Both the position numbers and the translations under genes were made by a program. Shown piece by piece: positions 3,204 to 40,989 of a stretch of 40,989 nt of DNA. The notes under the pieces are model-generated. The model did not search any database. It was not told where the DNA came from and worked only from the letters and a program-made list of their open reading frames with translations. The stretch's first letter is position 1, and every line of letters starts with the position of its first letter. This DNA comes from a virus. The stretch covers positions 1 through 40,989 of IMG/VR virus record IMGVR_UViG_3300046167_000627; one strand, given 5' to 3'.

Positions 3204-3479
3204 TAGGCCCTATCCGGAGCCTAGCCCACTTGTCAACAGAACGGGCTATCTAATTCGATGAAGCATCACGACAAGTAAGTTCGGACGCGGGTTCAACTCC
3301 CGCCGCCTCCAAAAATCGGGGGGGCGTTCTGGATTCGACGGGCAAGCGTAAGTGATGTGGAGAAGCGGCGATCTAAGCTGCCGTGCTGTGTAACAGCAGA
3401 AACGCGAAGGAATAAACTATCAGCAAACGATAGCGAGTACCGACTAGCCGCATAAGCTAGTCTGGGGCGGCCACTGCCC
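3204..3479 (+). ncRNA. ssrA: Circularly permuted (two-piece type) tmRNA
   Basis: tmRNA frees stalled ribosomes and tags the stuck protein. Here its two halves are in swapped order. The acceptor piece comes first: T-arm GCGGG/CCCGC (3287-3291, 3299-3303) with loop TTCAACT, then CGCCTCC (3304-3310) and discriminator A3311. After only eight bases (3312-3319) the coding piece begins with GGGGGCG (3320-3326) and the hallmark TTCTGGATTCGACGGG. The seven acceptor pairs form perfectly, with a G3-U70 wobble, the alanine identity element. P2 forms between GTGATGT (3352-3358) and GCATCAC (3263-3269). Hairpins at 3366-3397 fit pseudoknot 1, the tag frame is 3423-3455, and a 7-bp hairpin (3442-3462) encloses its stop codon, as in other tmRNAs. 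CCA is not encoded. The outer ends (3204, 3479) are estimates. Permuted genes are known from Alphaproteobacteria, some Betaproteobacteria and cyanobacteria. Confidence 0.88.
3423..3455 (+). other. tmRNA tag reading frame, peptide ANDSEYRLAA
   Basis: The resume codon GCA at 3423 follows ACTATC and opens ten sense codons, ANDSEYRLAA, ending in TAA at 3453. With the alanine carried by the tmRNA the full tag would be AANDSEYRLAA. It keeps the AND start and the LAA end recognised by ClpXP and SspB-type systems (E. coli tag: AANDENYALAA). It differs in the middle, where Ser-Glu-Tyr-Arg replaces Glu-Asn-Tyr-Ala. Confidence 0.88.
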
Positions 3480-3521
3480 TTATTACCCAAGTGTCGGCAC
3501 CTATCAACTAAGGAGATGAGT

Positions 3522-3653
3522 ATGGACACTCGAAAGAAAGGTAAGATATACCCGCACTGCCCAAAGTGTGGGCAGCCTATTCGCTCTGAGGAGCGGTTGA
3601 AGAACCACCTAAACCGGTGCCTCGCCACCGGCAAACACCTAAGGAGGAAGTAA
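3522..3653 (+). CDS. Small C2HC zinc-finger peptide
   Basis: A 43-residue peptide with a clear zinc-binding set: C-P-K-C (residues 13-16) followed by KNHLNRC, giving a C-x2-C...H-x3-C pattern like classical zinc fingers. The rest is basic (MDTRKKGK at the start, HLRRK at the end), consistent with nucleic-acid binding. AAGGAG lies eight bases before the start. Its TAA overlaps the ATG of the CsrA-like gene (TAATG), so the two are translationally coupled. It starts about 40 bases after the tmRNA coding piece, probably in the same transcript. Confidence 0.75.
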   Translation: MDTRKKGKIYPHCPKCGQPIRSEERLKNHLNRCLATGKHLRRK

Positions 3654-3872: not shown

Positions 3873-4064
3873 ATGCGTACAGTTAGCAATGTACGGCTCA
3901 ACACGCTTGAGAACATGAGCATTCAAGACATGATGGAATACGTTGAGGACTTCGGCTACTGCGTCGAGGGCCTCAGTAATGACGACCTCTATGATTTGGC
4001 TGTGTCTCTGATGGATGGATGGGACGAGAGCGACGAGGTACAAGAGTTGAGCTTTGATGTTTGA
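3873..4064 (+). CDS. Small acidic protein of unknown function
   Basis: A 63-residue, strongly acidic protein (DMMEYVEDFGYCVEG; MDGWDESDEVQELSF). The start at 3873 follows AAGGGGATAG; a longer in-frame reading would begin inside the terminator. No family is recognised. The last bases overlap the start of the DnaB-like gene by 8, so the two are coupled. Acidity and size resemble DNA-mimic or regulatory phage peptides, but there is no direct evidence. Confidence 0.6.
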   Translation: MRTVSNVRLNTLENMSIQDMMEYVEDFGYCVEGLSNDDLYDLAVSLMDGWDESDEVQELSFDV

Positions 4065-5088
4065 TGACCTAGAGACAGACATCTTAGTAGGACTGGGCCT
4101 CGGACGTTTTCGAGACCCCAGCAGTATAGTAGACGAGGTAATCGAGGAGCGTGAGAATCCGATACAGGGCATCTCAAGCCCTTGGTCGAAGCTACCGTGG
4201 GAGATCCCCATGACTGGCATCACGTTGTTCGGAGGTTATAGCGGGCACTCTAAATCAACGGTGATTAACCAGTGGTGTTTGCACGCTTGTGCGACGGGCC
4301 ACAAGGTCGCCATTGCCTCGCTTGAACTTACCAATGCCAATCTCTACGAAATACTGGCCTCACAGTCTGCATGTGTCGCATCTCCTCCGGACAGTTATCT
4401 GAAGGAGTTTGCCGCATGGGCAGACGGAAAACTGCACATCGTTGACAGTCACGACGTGCTTAAACCGGAAGAAGTTTTAGAGATGGTCAAGGACAGCAAG
4501 CGCCTACTCGGTTGCTCAATGTTTGTTCTCGATTGCCTATATCAAGTTGATCTAGGTGATGACCTATCTTTAGAAAAGCAATTTTTCCAACAGCTATCAG
4601 CAACCGCCAGAGACTACGAGATGGCGGTGGTTGTCGTTCACCACGCCAGAAAACCTAGTGGCCCAGACGGTGAGTCAAAGCCGCCCGGGAAGGAGTCGTT
4701 CATCGGCTCCAGTCACCTAGTCAACGCGGCAGCGGCAGTGCTGGTTATTCACGAGGACAAGAAGAAGGCGGCAGCGAAGAGGGCTGGCGAGGAGGTAGAC
4801 GACAGCTTTGGTGATTTTTCGCTATCGGTCTTGAAATCTCGCTTCTCGGCATGGGAGGGCCGTGTGTCCCTCTATAAGCATCAATCAGCACGCCTGCTCT
4901 GCAACAGCCGGGCACGGCAATACAAACCTATCGACGTGAGGGAGGACAAGGAATGCAAAAAATCAAAGAGCGAACGGTCTACTTGGTCGCAGGGAGTGGA
5001 CCCGACAGGTGGTTTACCGGAGAGCTCTCAGCTAGAGACTACGTCTCGGATAGATTCGACGACATCGATGGGCCAATACCCTTTCTGA
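4057..5088 (+). CDS. DnaB/RecA-fold ATPase, probable replicative helicase
   Basis: A 343-residue protein with a RecA-type core. The Walker A motif is GYSGHSKST (about residues 68-76), Walker B is MFVLDCLYQ (about 161-169), and VVVVHHARKP (about 201-210) matches the DnaB H4/sensor region. The DnaB N-terminal domain is missing, so it resembles the C-terminal ATPase domain of DnaB or the helicase half of phage T7 gp4. It would unwind DNA at the fork or load onto ssDNA. ATG at 4057 was chosen over TTG at 4054. The last 45 residues are Ser/Thr-rich and lie out of frame over the next gene. A run of six A (4957-4962) could shift the reading into that gene. Confidence 0.75.
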   Translation: MFDDLETDILVGLGLGRFRDPSSIVDEVIEERENPIQGISSPWSKLPWEIPMTGITLFGGYSGHSKSTVINQWCLHACATGHKVAIASLELTNANLYEILASQSACVASPPDSYLKEFAAWADGKLHIVDSHDVLKPEEVLEMVKDSKRLLGCSMFVLDCLYQVDLGDDLSLEKQFFQQLSATARDYEMAVVVVHHARKPSGPDGESKPPGKESFIGSSHLVNAAAAVLVIHEDKKKAAAKRAGEEVDDSFGDFSLSVLKSRFSAWEGRVSLYKHQSARLLCNSRARQYKPIDVREDKECKKSKSERSTWSQGVDPTGGLPESSQLETTSRIDSTTSMGQYPF

Positions 5089-5734: not shown

Positions 5735-7624
5735 TTGAGCAAATTAAGTGACTATCAAACACTGATCGCGGCATCTCGCTATGCCCGGTGGCTGGACGAT
5801 GAGGAGCGCCGTGAGACCTTCCCGGAAACAGCCAAGCGTTACACCGACTACTGGCTCAACAAGGACAAGATCACCGCAGAGGAAGCTGACCGGCTCACCA
5901 AGGCCATCACCAGCCTATCTTGTGTACCAAGCATGCGAGCACTGTGGACGGCAGGCGAGGCACTGGATCGTGACAATGCCGCCGGGTTCAACTGTTGCTA
6001 TACAGCAGTCGATCACGTCCGGGCATTCGACGAGGCTTTCTACCTGCTCATGTGTGGCTGCGGCGTCGGCTTCTCTGTAGAGCGGCAGAACATTGCCAAG
6101 CTGCCCGAGGTGCCCGAGGACATGCACACCAGCGACACCGTGATCAATGTTCCTGACAGCAAGCAGGGCTGGGCGTCATCTTTGCGGCAGCTGATTAGCC
6201 TGCTCTACTCGGGACACATTCCCAAGTGGGACGTTAGCAACGTCAGGCCATCAGGTGCGCGGCTCAAGACGTTTGGCGGCAGGGCTTCAGGTCCACAGCC
6301 ACTGGTTGACCTCTTTGAGTTTACCGTCCGGGTGTTTAAGGGCGCAGCAGGTCGTCAGCTCAACAGCATCGAGTGCCACGACATCATGACCAAGATCGGC
6401 GAGGCGGTAGTCGTTGGCGGTGTCCGACGTAGCGCCATGATCAGCCTATCAAACGTCAGTGATGACCGTATGCGGATGGCCAAGTCTGGTGCTTGGTATG
6501 ACCAGCACGGTCACCGGGCGCTAGCTAACAACTCGGCAGCGTACACAGAAAAGCCAGACTTCGCTGTGTTCCAAGCAGAGATGAAGGCGCTGTACGAGAG
6601 CTACTCAGGCGAGCGTGGCATCTTCAACCGCGAGGGTGCACGCAAGAAGTTACGCGACCACGGTAGGCGAGAACACGATCACGATTGGGGTGGAAATCCC
6701 TGTTTAGAGGTGATCTTGCGACCGAATCAAATGTGCAATCTATCCGAGGTTGTCATCCGTGAGAACGACACGCTTGCCTCGCTCAAGAAGAAGGTCGAGA
6801 TAGCCGCGATCTTTGGCACGCTGCAGTCAACGCTGACCGACTTCCGTTACCTGCGGAAGGTATGGAAGGACAACTGCGACGAGGAGCGACTGCTGGGTGT
6901 CAGCATGACGGGTATCTGTGATCACGCTGTTATGTCAGGTCAGGAAGGCATGGAGAAGTTAGGCAGCTGGCTCCGTCAGTTACGCGACCACGCTGAGAAG
7001 GTCAACGAGGATTGGGCTGAGAGGCTGGGCATTAACCCAAGCACATCAGTATCCGTGATTAAGCCATCGGGTACGGTCAGTCAATTGGTAGATGCAAGCT
7101 CCGGGATTCACCCACGCTACAGCGATTTTTATATAAGGCGCCTGAGAAATTCGGTAAACGATCCAATTACCAGCTTCCTGATCGATCAAGGAGTGCCACA
7201 CGAGAAGTGCGTCATGCAGCCAGAGACGACGGTGGTGTTTGACTTCTATGTCAAGTCACCAGAGCACGCACTGACCACTAGCCAAGTCGGAACCATTGAC
7301 CAGCTAGAGCTTGCGAAGTGCTACGGCGAGAACTGGGCGACCCACACGGTTAGCTGCACCACCTACTACACCGACGACTCATGGTACGACGCGTGCTCGT
7401 GGATGTGGAAGAACTGGGACAGTCTGATCGGGATGAGCTTCCTGCCCCACGACGGCGGCACCTACCAGCAGGCGCCATACGAGGAGATTGATGAGGCCAC
7501 GTTTAACTACGCGGTCAACGGGATCAACCCTATCGACTGGTCGCTGCTACCCAGCTACGAGAGAGGTGACACCACCGAGGGCGCGAAGACTGCGGCCTGT
7601 GTCGGTGACGCCTGCGAGCTGTGA
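5735..7624 (+). CDS. nrdJ: Class II (adenosylcobalamin-dependent) ribonucleotide reductase
   Basis: A 629-residue reductase that turns ribonucleotides into deoxyribonucleotides for phage DNA. It fits the monomeric class II group (Lactobacillus leichmannii type, about 740 residues), somewhat shortened. The first redox cysteine is in FNCCYTAV (about residue 86). NPCLEVIL (about 323-330) holds the thiyl-radical Cys with Asn and Glu, and QMCNLSE supplies the second redox Cys. PSGTVSQLVDASSGIHPRY is a conserved barrel segment. The C-terminal tail ends in CVGDAC, the re-reducing cysteine pair. No ATP-cone domain is seen. The enzyme is oxygen-independent but needs host vitamin B12. The start is TTG at 5735, with TAGGAG eight bases upstream and no suitable ATG. 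Confidence 0.93.
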   Translation: MSKLSDYQTLIAASRYARWLDDEERRETFPETAKRYTDYWLNKDKITAEEADRLTKAITSLSCVPSMRALWTAGEALDRDNAAGFNCCYTAVDHVRAFDEAFYLLMCGCGVGFSVERQNIAKLPEVPEDMHTSDTVINVPDSKQGWASSLRQLISLLYSGHIPKWDVSNVRPSGARLKTFGGRASGPQPLVDLFEFTVRVFKGAAGRQLNSIECHDIMTKIGEAVVVGGVRRSAMISLSNVSDDRMRMAKSGAWYDQHGHRALANNSAAYTEKPDFAVFQAEMKALYESYSGERGIFNREGARKKLRDHGRREHDHDWGGNPCLEVILRPNQMCNLSEVVIRENDTLASLKKKVEIAAIFGTLQSTLTDFRYLRKVWKDNCDEERLLGVSMTGICDHAVMSGQEGMEKLGSWLRQLRDHAEKVNEDWAERLGINPSTSVSVIKPSGTVSQLVDASSGIHPRYSDFYIRRLRNSVNDPITSFLIDQGVPHEKCVMQPETTVVFDFYVKSPEHALTTSQVGTIDQLELAKCYGENWATHTVSCTTYYTDDSWYDACSWMWKNWDSLIGMSFLPHDGGTYQQAPYEEIDEATFNYAVNGINPIDWSLLPSYERGDTTEGAKTAACVGDACEL

Positions 7625-8353: not shown

Positions 8354-9501
8354 TGAGGTACGGAAGCGTCTGTAGTGGCATAGAGGCCGCTACGCAGGCG
8401 TGGCATGGACTTGGATGGGAGCCCGCATTCTTCTCTGACATCGAGAAGTTTCCGGTAGCTGTACTGCAGCACCACTACCCAGACGTGCCGTGTCATGGAG
8501 ATTTCACAGACATCACGGAGGATGACTATGGACCAATTGACTTGCTTGTCGGAGGAACACCCTGCCAATCATTCAGCGTCGCAGGACTCAGAGGCGGCAT
8601 GGATGACGACCGTGGCAACTTGGCACTCGAATTCATTAGGCTTGCTCAACGAAAGCGGCCACAGTGGCTGGTCTGGGAAAACGTCCCCGGCGTCCTGTCA
8701 TCAAACGGAGGACGGGACTTTGGAAGCTTCCTCGGGGCGCTGGCTGAAATCGGGTATGGGTTCGCCTACCGGGTTCTTGACGCTCAATACTTCGGAGTGG
8801 CCCAAAGACGCCGCCGTGTGTTCGTTGTCGGATACCTTGGAGACTGGAGACGTGCCGCCGCGGTTCTTTTTGAGCGCGAAAGCCTGTCAGGGAATCCTGC
8901 GCCGAGCAGAGAAGAGGGGGAAAAAGTTGCCCCCGCTGTTACAACTGGCCCTCCATTCAGTCGCACAGGAAACGAGCGAGTAGAGTGCGAGGCCATTGTG
9001 CCAATGCAGATCGGATCCGGAAGCGACCCTGAGTTAATGGCAACGCTCTGCGCCAAAGACAACGAAAAGTGGGGCTGTAACCAGTGGGTGAATGAGGGCA
9101 AGGCTGTTATCGGTTTTCAGTCAACCGCAAACGCCTGTGACGCGGCGGCGGCAGGGATCAATGTTAGCCCCACGCTGAAAACTGACCCTATGGCTGTGGC
9201 GTTTGCTCAGAACAGCAGGGATGAGCTCAGGGAGATGCCTTACTCGGGCGCTCTGGCGGCCAGCCCCGGCATGAAGCAGACCAGCTATGTGCGCGAAGGT
9301 CTTAGCGTCAGGCGCCTTACACCAACCGAGTGCGAGAGGCTGCAGGGATTCCCCGATGGCTTCACGCAGATATCTTGGCGCAACAAGGAGCCAGAGAACT
9401 GTCCAGACGGGCCACGCTACAAGGCTCTGGGTAATTCGATGGCTGTTCCCGTAATGAAGTGGATAGGCGAGCGCATTCAGGCCGTGGAGGACCTGCAATG
9501 A
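8353..9501 (+). CDS. DNA (cytosine-5) methyltransferase
   Basis: A 382-residue Dcm-type methyltransferase that transfers a methyl group from S-adenosylmethionine to cytosine C5. The motifs are in order: I (GSVCSGIEAATQAWHGLG, residues 4-21), IV with the catalytic Cys (GTPCQSFSVAG, about 68-78), VI (ENVPGVL, about 109-115), VIII (QRRRRVFVVG, about 150-159), and IX-X near the end (RRLTPTECERLQGFPDGF; YKALGNSMAVPV). The region from about 170 to 310 is the variable target-recognition part, so the target site cannot be read. No restriction enzyme is nearby, so it most likely protects phage DNA. Bases 8495-8983 also carry a second reading frame. Confidence 0.93.
   Translation: MRYGSVCSGIEAATQAWHGLGWEPAFFSDIEKFPVAVLQHHYPDVPCHGDFTDITEDDYGPIDLLVGGTPCQSFSVAGLRGGMDDDRGNLALEFIRLAQRKRPQWLVWENVPGVLSSNGGRDFGSFLGALAEIGYGFAYRVLDAQYFGVAQRRRRVFVVGYLGDWRRAAAVLFERESLSGNPAPSREEGEKVAPAVTTGPPFSRTGNERVECEAIVPMQIGSGSDPELMATLCAKDNEKWGCNQWVNEGKAVIGFQSTANACDAAAAGINVSPTLKTDPMAVAFAQNSRDELREMPYSGALAASPGMKQTSYVREGLSVRRLTPTECERLQGFPDGFTQISWRNKEPENCPDGPRYKALGNSMAVPVMKWIGERIQAVEDLQ
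8495..8983 (+). CDS. Second-frame ORF inside the methyltransferase gene, conserved phage-type tail motif
   Basis: A 162-codon open frame runs within the methyltransferase gene in another frame. Its last third (SEWPKDAAVCSLSDTLETGD, VPPRFFLSAKACQGILRRAE, KRGKKLPPLL) matches, from memory, a short phage protein family with the text FLSAKACAGILRRAERRGK that is often encoded beside or over Dcm-type methylase genes. The methyltransferase frame is also well conserved here (QRRRRVFVVG; VLFERESL). A real overlapping gene is therefore plausible. The true start is unclear: Met codons at 8495, about 8504 and later are open, and no strong ribosome binding site stands out. The function is unknown. Confidence 0.5.
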   Translation: MEISQTSRRMTMDQLTCLSEEHPANHSASQDSEAAWMTTVATWHSNSLGLLNESGHSGWSGKTSPASCHQTEDGTLEASSGRWLKSGMGSPTGFLTLNTSEWPKDAAVCSLSDTLETGDVPPRFFLSAKACQGILRRAEKRGKKLPPLLQLALHSVAQETSE

Positions 9502-12735: not shown

Positions 12736-12907
12736 GGCGCTGCAGGAGCTGTCAGGCTACAAGCAGGTCAGCAAGGTGATTGCGTTTCTTCGGGAACATC
12801 GCATACGATACGTCATCGGCGGGGACGGAAAGCCCCGGACAACCAGTGACTTTCTGAGCGAGGATCTCGATGGCGAAAAGCAAACTTCCACCATACTGTT
12901 TAAGTGA
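12716..12907 (+). CDS. DUF4224 family protein beside the integrase
   Basis: A 63-residue protein with the DUF4224 pattern: FEALQELSGYKQVSKVIAFL, then REHRIRYVIGGDGKPRTT, a winged-helix-like DNA-binding unit. Genes of this family typically sit immediately upstream of tyrosine integrases in prophages, as here, and may act as excision or directionality factors; that role is inferred. The start is GTG at 12716 with GGAG upstream. It overlaps the integrase start by 38 bases. Confidence 0.75.
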   Translation: MPVVPFEALQELSGYKQVSKVIAFLREHRIRYVIGGDGKPRTTSDFLSEDLDGEKQTSTILFK

Positions 12908-13820
12908 CAAGTACGGCTATCGATACAAGCCCTATCTAGGGCGCGTACTAGGCAAGATAAAGTGGGGCCCGACAGTGTTCTTGGCCCCGCCAGACGCCAC
13001 CATGAGCGAGGTCTGGAAGGCTTACGAGGAGTTGACCAGTGGGCCAAAGGATACGGTGGGATGGCTGCTCAACCTGTACCGCGATAGTGATCGGTTCAAG
13101 GAGCTGTCGCCTAAGTCTCAGAAGGATTACTCAAAGGCCATCGAGAAGCTCATAGGAGCCCCTGTGGGAGCGATTCGATTTGGTGATGCGAAGCTAACGC
13201 AAGTCAAGAAACAGACCGTCAGGAGCTACCTAGACGCCTATCCCAGCCCAGTCGCAGCCAACCGCCAGATAGCGGTGCTTAAGTCTGCGTGGAACTGGAC
13301 GCTAGAGCGTTACGAGGTGCCTGACAACCCATGTATAGGTGTGAAGCTCAATCGGGAGGCCCCCCGAGAGAGATACGTCACGGATGACGAGTTTGAGACG
13401 GTGCTAAGGATGGCGCCGCCACCTATATCACAGATGATGGAGCTGGCGTATCTACTCCGGGCTAGGCTGTCCGAGGTGCTAAACCTGACAGTTGAAGACG
13501 TGTCTGACACCCATGTCACGCTCAGGAGGCTAAAAGGCAGCGAAGGAGAGCTAACAATGCTCTCAGACCGCCTCAGAGCCGCTGTGGGCGACGTTAGGGG
13601 TGGCAGTCATATATGCTACCAGTACAGCGAGAGTGGCTTTAGGAGCGCATGGAGGCGCTTACAGGCCAATATGAAAAAGGCAGGTATTGAGCCTTTTCCG
13701 TTCCATGACCTCAAATCTAAGGGCGTGAGCGACCACGAAACCAACCATAGTGGGCACCGCAGCCCCTCAATGAGGAAGACTTATGTTCGGAAACTTCAGC
13801 AGGTCGAAGCCACCCGGTGA
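12870..13820 (+). CDS. int: Tyrosine recombinase (phage integrase)
   Basis: A 316-residue integrase. The N-terminal part has a core-binding helical domain (about residues 60-150). The catalytic domain shows the first Arg in YLLRARLSEVLNL (about 193), HDLKSKG (about 275-281), SGHRS (about 291-295) and the nucleophile Tyr in RKTYVRK (about 304-306). In the second box the usual H-x-x-R is H-D-L-K, so Lys replaces the second catalytic Arg, a variant to note. It would recombine the attP downstream (14059-14103) with a host tRNA-Asn gene. Overlaps with its neighbours at both ends suggest coupled translation. Confidence 0.88.
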   Translation: MAKSKLPPYCLSDKYGYRYKPYLGRVLGKIKWGPTVFLAPPDATMSEVWKAYEELTSGPKDTVGWLLNLYRDSDRFKELSPKSQKDYSKAIEKLIGAPVGAIRFGDAKLTQVKKQTVRSYLDAYPSPVAANRQIAVLKSAWNWTLERYEVPDNPCIGVKLNREAPRERYVTDDEFETVLRMAPPPISQMMELAYLLRARLSEVLNLTVEDVSDTHVTLRRLKGSEGELTMLSDRLRAAVGDVRGGSHICYQYSESGFRSAWRRLQANMKKAGIEPFPFHDLKSKGVSDHETNHSGHRSPSMRKTYVRKLQQVEATR

Positions 13821-40800: not shown

Positions 40801-40899
40801 ATGGCTGTACGAATAGTAACCCACAAATACTCACTTTCACCACCCACTTGTACGGACAAGCCCTTGGTTGTATCATCGGGGGTAGTCAGTTATGCCTAA
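40801..40899 (+). CDS. Leader ORF (32 residues) coupled to the repressor
   Basis: ATG at 40801, preceded by CGGAGGATCAC, opens 32 codons (MAVRIVTHKYSLSPPTCTDK, ending VVSSGVVSYA). Its TAA at 40897-40899 overlaps the repressor ATG at 40892 by 8 bases. The repressor has no good ribosome binding site of its own, so ribosomes finishing this ORF may start the repressor. It could be a regulatory leader peptide rather than a functional protein. Confidence 0.55.
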   Translation: MAVRIVTHKYSLSPPTCTDKPLVVSSGVVSYA

Positions 40900-40989
40900 C
40901 AGAGTGAAAAGCATGGACCTCACACAGATAGTGGCCAATAACCTGCAGCGTATATGCAAGGAGCACGACCTGAGCAGCCGTGAGCTGGC
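40892..40989 (+). CDS. Helix-turn-helix repressor-like protein, N-terminal part (continues at base 1)
   Basis: The first 32 codons and two bases of the repressor-type gene: MPNRVKSMDLTQIVANNLQR then ICKEHDLSSREL. The opening helix TQIVANNLQRICKEHDLSS is typical of Xre-family domains. The last two bases (GC) join base 1 (C) to give Ala, and the helix-turn-helix is finished on the other end of the window. This shows that the sequence is a linearised circle or a circularly permuted molecule. Confidence 0.85.
   Translation, partial: MPNRVKSMDLTQIVANNLQRICKEHDLSSREL

Follow-up and report, generated by a model that had tools for sequence, protein, structure and literature searches.

The window analysed here, the whole stretch of 40,989 nucleotides of a viral record from IMG/VR, raises the question of whether a locus on its plus strand encodes a functional tmRNA in circularly permuted order and to which of the known permuted lineages such a gene would belong. 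A two-piece tmRNA originates from a precursor that is cut on both sides of a linker. The pieces stay paired, alanine is charged via the G3-U70 pair, and rescue and tagging proceed with the aid of SmpB.

Gene order and parts of the tmRNA

A circularly permuted tmRNA gene is indicated at 3250-3500 both by ARAGORN and by an Rfam covariance model. In a scan of the whole window, the model for permuted tmRNA (RF04321, tmRNA_permuted) matched with 76.3 bits at a cut-off of 47 and an E-value of 4.7e-13, and the features of this family are present as well: the 3' half lies upstream of the 5' half, a T arm and helix P2 are formed, the acceptor stem of seven base pairs includes G3-U70, and the tag frame ends in AA with the stop codon inside a hairpin (Table 1). 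The permuted order with an 8-base linker, the seven acceptor pairs, G3-U70, P2, the tag and the stop-codon hairpin had all been proposed in a preliminary description, and each of these parts sits where it had been placed. The borders given there (3204-3479) are superseded by a true extent of about 3250-3500, and of the "intact functional design" it is the intact permuted design that stands, while function is a prediction. ARAGORN calls the gene at 3222-3546 with a long tag, AETRRNKLSANDSEYRLAA, which begins too early in the frame. A one-piece tmRNA was not found elsewhere in the window, the standard model RF00023 reaching 28.8 bits (cut-off 47) on the T-arm part only.

Table 1. Parts of the permuted tmRNA gene and neighbouring genes, in window coordinates
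Feature	Position	Strand	Remarks
P2 helix, 3' strand GCATCAC	3263..3269	+	Start of acceptor piece; pairs with 3352-3358
T arm GCGGG-TTCAACT-CCCGC	3287..3303	+	Rfam alignment; 5 pairs, stem 3287-3291/3299-3303
3' acceptor strand CGCCTCC and discriminator A	3304..3311	+	Strand 3304-3310, discriminator A3311; 7 pairs with 3320-3326 including G3-U70; no encoded CCA
8-base linker (intervening segment) AAAATCGG	3312..3319	+	Processing expected to remove linker
5' acceptor strand and D-loop region GGGGGCG-TTCTGGATTCGACGGG	3320..3342	+	Rfam alignment; strand 3320-3326, TTCTGGATTCGACGGG 3327-3342
P2 helix, 5' strand GTGATGT	3352..3358	+	7 pairs with 3263-3269, one G-U
Two adjoining hairpins, PK1 region	3366-3369/3380-3383 and 3384-3388/3394-3398	+	Within 3366..3398
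Tag frame ANDSEYRLAA and TAA stop	3423..3455	+	Tag 3423-3452, TAA 3453-3455
P5 hairpin, stop codon in loop	3442..3462	+	3442-3448/3456-3462, 7 pairs; from folding
3' tail of coding piece (hairpin, CCCTTATTACCCAAG)	3463..3500	+	In-register match to profile of beta permuted tails
Small cysteine-rich ORF adjoining tmRNA	3522..3653	+	Adjoins tmRNA in L280 too, 70% over 37 aa
DnaB-like helicase	4054..5088	+	Downstream in window, L265 and L280
Ribonucleotide reductase	5735..7624	+	Downstream in window, L265, L280 and L055

Neither a sigma-70-like promoter nor a terminator was detected near the gene, and nucleotide BLAST of the whole tmRNA region returned no phage match. In free energy the whole region does not stand out (z -1.33); what speaks for structure is comparative evidence.

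Relatives with a tmRNA at the same place

Scanning with the ribonucleotide reductase revealed two relatives, L265 (93% identical in this enzyme) and L280 (55%), in both of which a tmRNA occupies the corresponding locus and precedes the genes for helicase and ribonucleotide reductase; searches with the portal protein, the helicase and the ORF at 1624-2118 did not reach a tmRNA. The T stem has the same sequence in all three. Compared with the window, L280 has two acceptor pairs in which both bases are replaced and pairing is kept, and in the PK1 region of L265 one end pair per hairpin is altered on both sides, from C-G to U-A and from U-A to C-G. Two-sided changes that keep pairing also affect four of the seven P5 pairs in L280 and three in L265, where one further pair is broken. 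Because P5 and the tag codons share bases, changes in the hairpin go along with changes in the tag. The comparison of P2 leaves out L265, which is truncated on the 5' side. Pairing in the acceptor stem, PK1 and P5 has therefore been kept through two-sided changes, which, as judged from these alignments, marks the window tmRNA as an RNA under structural selection.

The same observations bear on the idea that the locus is a fragment of a host ssrA gene that serves the phage for attachment (attP), an arrangement found in many temperate phages, and that has no RNA function. The phage does encode a tyrosine integrase (12870-13820), positions 3278-3311 resemble the 3' ends of gammaproteobacterial ssrA genes, and pieces of ssrA serve as attP in other phages. 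We nevertheless regard this idea as highly improbable, given that both halves of the gene are there together with the tag frame and with helices that covary, that A3311 is not followed by CCA and that the integrase gene is 9.5 kb distant.

The records of other relatives, among them L264 (ribonucleotide reductase 96% identical) and L266, contain no tmRNA; two fragments of the same species, L085 and L086, end short of the region. Since it is missing from these records, the tmRNA looks like an accessory gene, situated at the same place in those relatives that possess it.

Lineage of the gene, its tag and its linker

Among the models of the tmRNA clan, beta_tmRNA (RF01850) fits best. It aligns the window gene from end to end with 48.3 bits, below its cut-off of 84, and we therefore call the gene "beta-type" and not a formal member of RF01850. 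L265 and L280 score 85.1 and 93.7 bits, respectively, and both exceed the same cut-off. The alphaproteobacterial model (RF01849, alpha_tmRNA) reached 21.4 bits, short of its cut-off of 50, and the cyanobacterial one (RF01851, cyano_tmRNA), covered by the whole-window scan and not by a single-model run, was not listed at the gathering threshold. With the permuted tmRNAs of Betaproteobacteria (for instance of Azonexus and Accumulibacter) the window gene has in common not only the permuted order and the full-length alignment but also a 10-residue AND...AA tag, a tail motif in register and, with regard to some genera, a short linker (7 bases in Accumulibacter). It differs from them in its sub-threshold score, the lack of an encoded CCA, the D-loop GGATTCGACGG and a resume codon whose distance from G1 is greater by 18 bases (offset 103 versus 85).

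When a profile was made from bacterial beta tails with the tRNA-like domain left out, the 70 bases that follow the stop codon fitted it in register; among 4000 dinucleotide shuffles none matched in register and one matched anywhere. One-piece gammaproteobacterial tails did not match this profile. A few other phage permuted tmRNAs do, and the tail thus marks the permuted kind and not the beta lineage alone. The tails of three such phage genes (L010, L023 and L059, with tags ANKIVRFSRQ.APVAA) outmatch that of the window on this profile. Profiles of the upstream region and of the PK1 region of bacterial beta genes did not find the window. For the tRNA-like domain taken alone, one-piece gammaproteobacterial and phage permuted genes gave summed scores of 43.5 and 44.5 bits (in the order listed) and bacterial beta genes 24.8; with 96%, the highest-ranking individual match belongs to a one-piece gene. 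As the domain fits the first two groups equally well, it does not discriminate between lineages. A helix of CACTTG (about 3228-3233) with CAAGTG (about 3488-3493), seemingly common with beta genes, is not claimed here, because CTTG in the latter reads as part of a promoter -35 box (CTTGAA, 17 bases, CATAAT).

It has to be asked, then, whether a one-piece gammaproteobacterial ssrA was rearranged within a phage, as a fourth permutation with no kinship to the permuted genes of beta, alpha and cyanobacterial type. The identity (up to 96%) of the tRNA-like domain to one-piece tmRNAs of GTDB Gammaproteobacteria would fit such an origin, as would the finding that GGATTCGACGG was not encountered in any permuted gene with a linker of up to 30 bases in a genome collection of 84,980 species. 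The tail, however, is in register with the tails of permuted beta genes, no such match exists for one-piece gammaproteobacterial tails, and the syntenic genes of L265 and L280 exceed the beta_tmRNA cut-off, that of L280 with the usual GGTTTCGAC. An independent permutation is hence unlikely. By the full-length model and the syntenic relatives, the gene comes out nearest to the Betaproteobacteria-type permuted form; we call it beta-type on this sequence comparison, a name that does not fix its deeper origin.

The tag does not settle the origin either. ANDSEYRLAA had been taken as gammaproteobacterial in style, yet it has seven of ten residues in common with the gammaproteobacterial ANDENYALAA and six with the betaproteobacterial ANDERFALAA. 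Resembling both, it is no proof of a gammaproteobacterial descent. The 16 bases from position 3327 recur unchanged in E. coli ssrA. In L265 and L280 the tags read ANDMEYAIAA and ANDDNYAIAA.

The preliminary description had further confined permuted tmRNAs to Alphaproteobacteria, some Betaproteobacteria and cyanobacteria and had seen the linker as very short. Neither point is supported as a novelty. A survey of phage genomes from 2022 reported 53 two-piece tmRNAs, of which 50 are marine or aquatic (PMC9004378), and the window gene adds one more to the phage permuted tmRNAs already known. A search pattern for short linkers matched 69 stretches in IMG/VR, many with 5-9 bases, a length that is thus ordinary in phages. 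Caution is warranted: short linkers and AND...LAA tags are no lineage markers.

Like the window, Melnitz and the other marine and aquatic phages of the survey carry a two-piece tmRNA; that of Melnitz belongs to the alphaproteobacterial type and has a glutamine riboswitch associated with it (PMC9004378), whereas the window gene is closer to the beta type. By the same tools, permuted tmRNAs were also recognized in Stenotrophomonas phage DLP6, Xanthomonas phage Rb1 and Bordetella phage PHB04, that of DLP6 again above the beta_tmRNA cut-off. These three genes of cultured phages differ from the window gene in that they reside beside phage tRNA genes, in larger genomes, and have other tags. They are situated at 1469-1812 (DLP6, L199), 944-1372 (Rb1, L200) and 944-1315 (PHB04, L201) and bear no annotation among the features shown for these records.

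The linkers of the two syntenic relatives measure 30 bases (L265) and 28 bases (L280), and both begin with CCA. The 8-base linker of the window is therefore probably the result of a deletion from about 30 bases that removed the encoded CCA as well, the direction being read from these two relatives. A loss of this kind might point at a decaying gene or at a decoy that inhibits trans-translation of the host, and a frameless phage tmRNA (DS6A) inhibiting E. coli tmRNA provides a precedent according to a passage in PMC11915505. Against decay or a decoy, which we consider improbable, stand the intact acceptor pairs, G3-U70, tag and stop hairpin, together with the many phage permuted genes that likewise have no CCA in their linkers. 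Moreover, tRNA genes without CCA are usable where a CCA-adding enzyme acts. A further suggestion, tentative and rather doubtful, is that the CCA-less segment entails maturation by RNase P, RNase Z-like cleavage and the CCA-adding enzyme, a route unlike that of the CCA-encoding relatives, and that the fast-changing tag would let the phage set the fate of tagged proteins.

Phage context and proposed function

One HTH-like protein frame runs uninterrupted across the ends of the window (40895-40989 and 1-268), and the record, classed as lacking end repeats, thus probably represents a phage genome that is circular and complete, with a size of about 41 kb. The tmRNA lies in a left-to-right block together with replication genes, ribonucleotide reductase and integrase, and the structural genes occupy the opposite minus strand. 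Relatives of the portal protein are at most 33% identical in the sampled genomes and 43% in an Octadecabacter phage; at this distance, no host is named.

Our preferred reading, to which we assign a probability of roughly 0.85, is that the locus is a functional Betaproteobacteria-type permuted (two-piece) tmRNA gene, which stands as an accessory among the plus-strand (probably early) genes of a podovirus-like phage of roughly 41 kb and which some relatives have at the corresponding locus. The observed basis of this reading consists of gene order, helices, compensatory changes, tag frame and synteny, together with the finding that the window encodes no SmpB; for processing, charging and rescue we infer the following course. 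RNase P would cut the precursor at G1 (3320), the 3' processing of the host would trim it after A3311, and a host enzyme would add CCA. Acceptor and coding pieces would be held together by the acceptor and P2 helices, and alanine would be charged via G3-U70. As the phage lacks SmpB, rescue would need that of the host: the charged RNA and host SmpB would release stalled ribosomes and add ANDSEYRLAA for proteolysis. Phage-supplied trans-translation with host SmpB is hence the most likely function, and the earlier proposal of a phage-owned ribosome rescue with its own tag is retained as plausible. Breakdown of host RNA, heavy translation late in infection and possession of an own tag may each be a reason for keeping the gene, and the sequence does not discriminate between them. 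Small podovirus-like phages of one group thus appear to carry a beta-type permuted tmRNA under structural selection; as no such gene turned up in the available DNA of some close relatives, it becomes possible to test what ribosome rescue supplied by a phage is for.

Elsewhere in the window, the cytosine methyltransferase stretch at 8532-8922 exhibits 86% DNA identity to Caulobacter phage DMCA, the genome of which is otherwise unrelated; judging by this identity, the stretch is a recent exchange.
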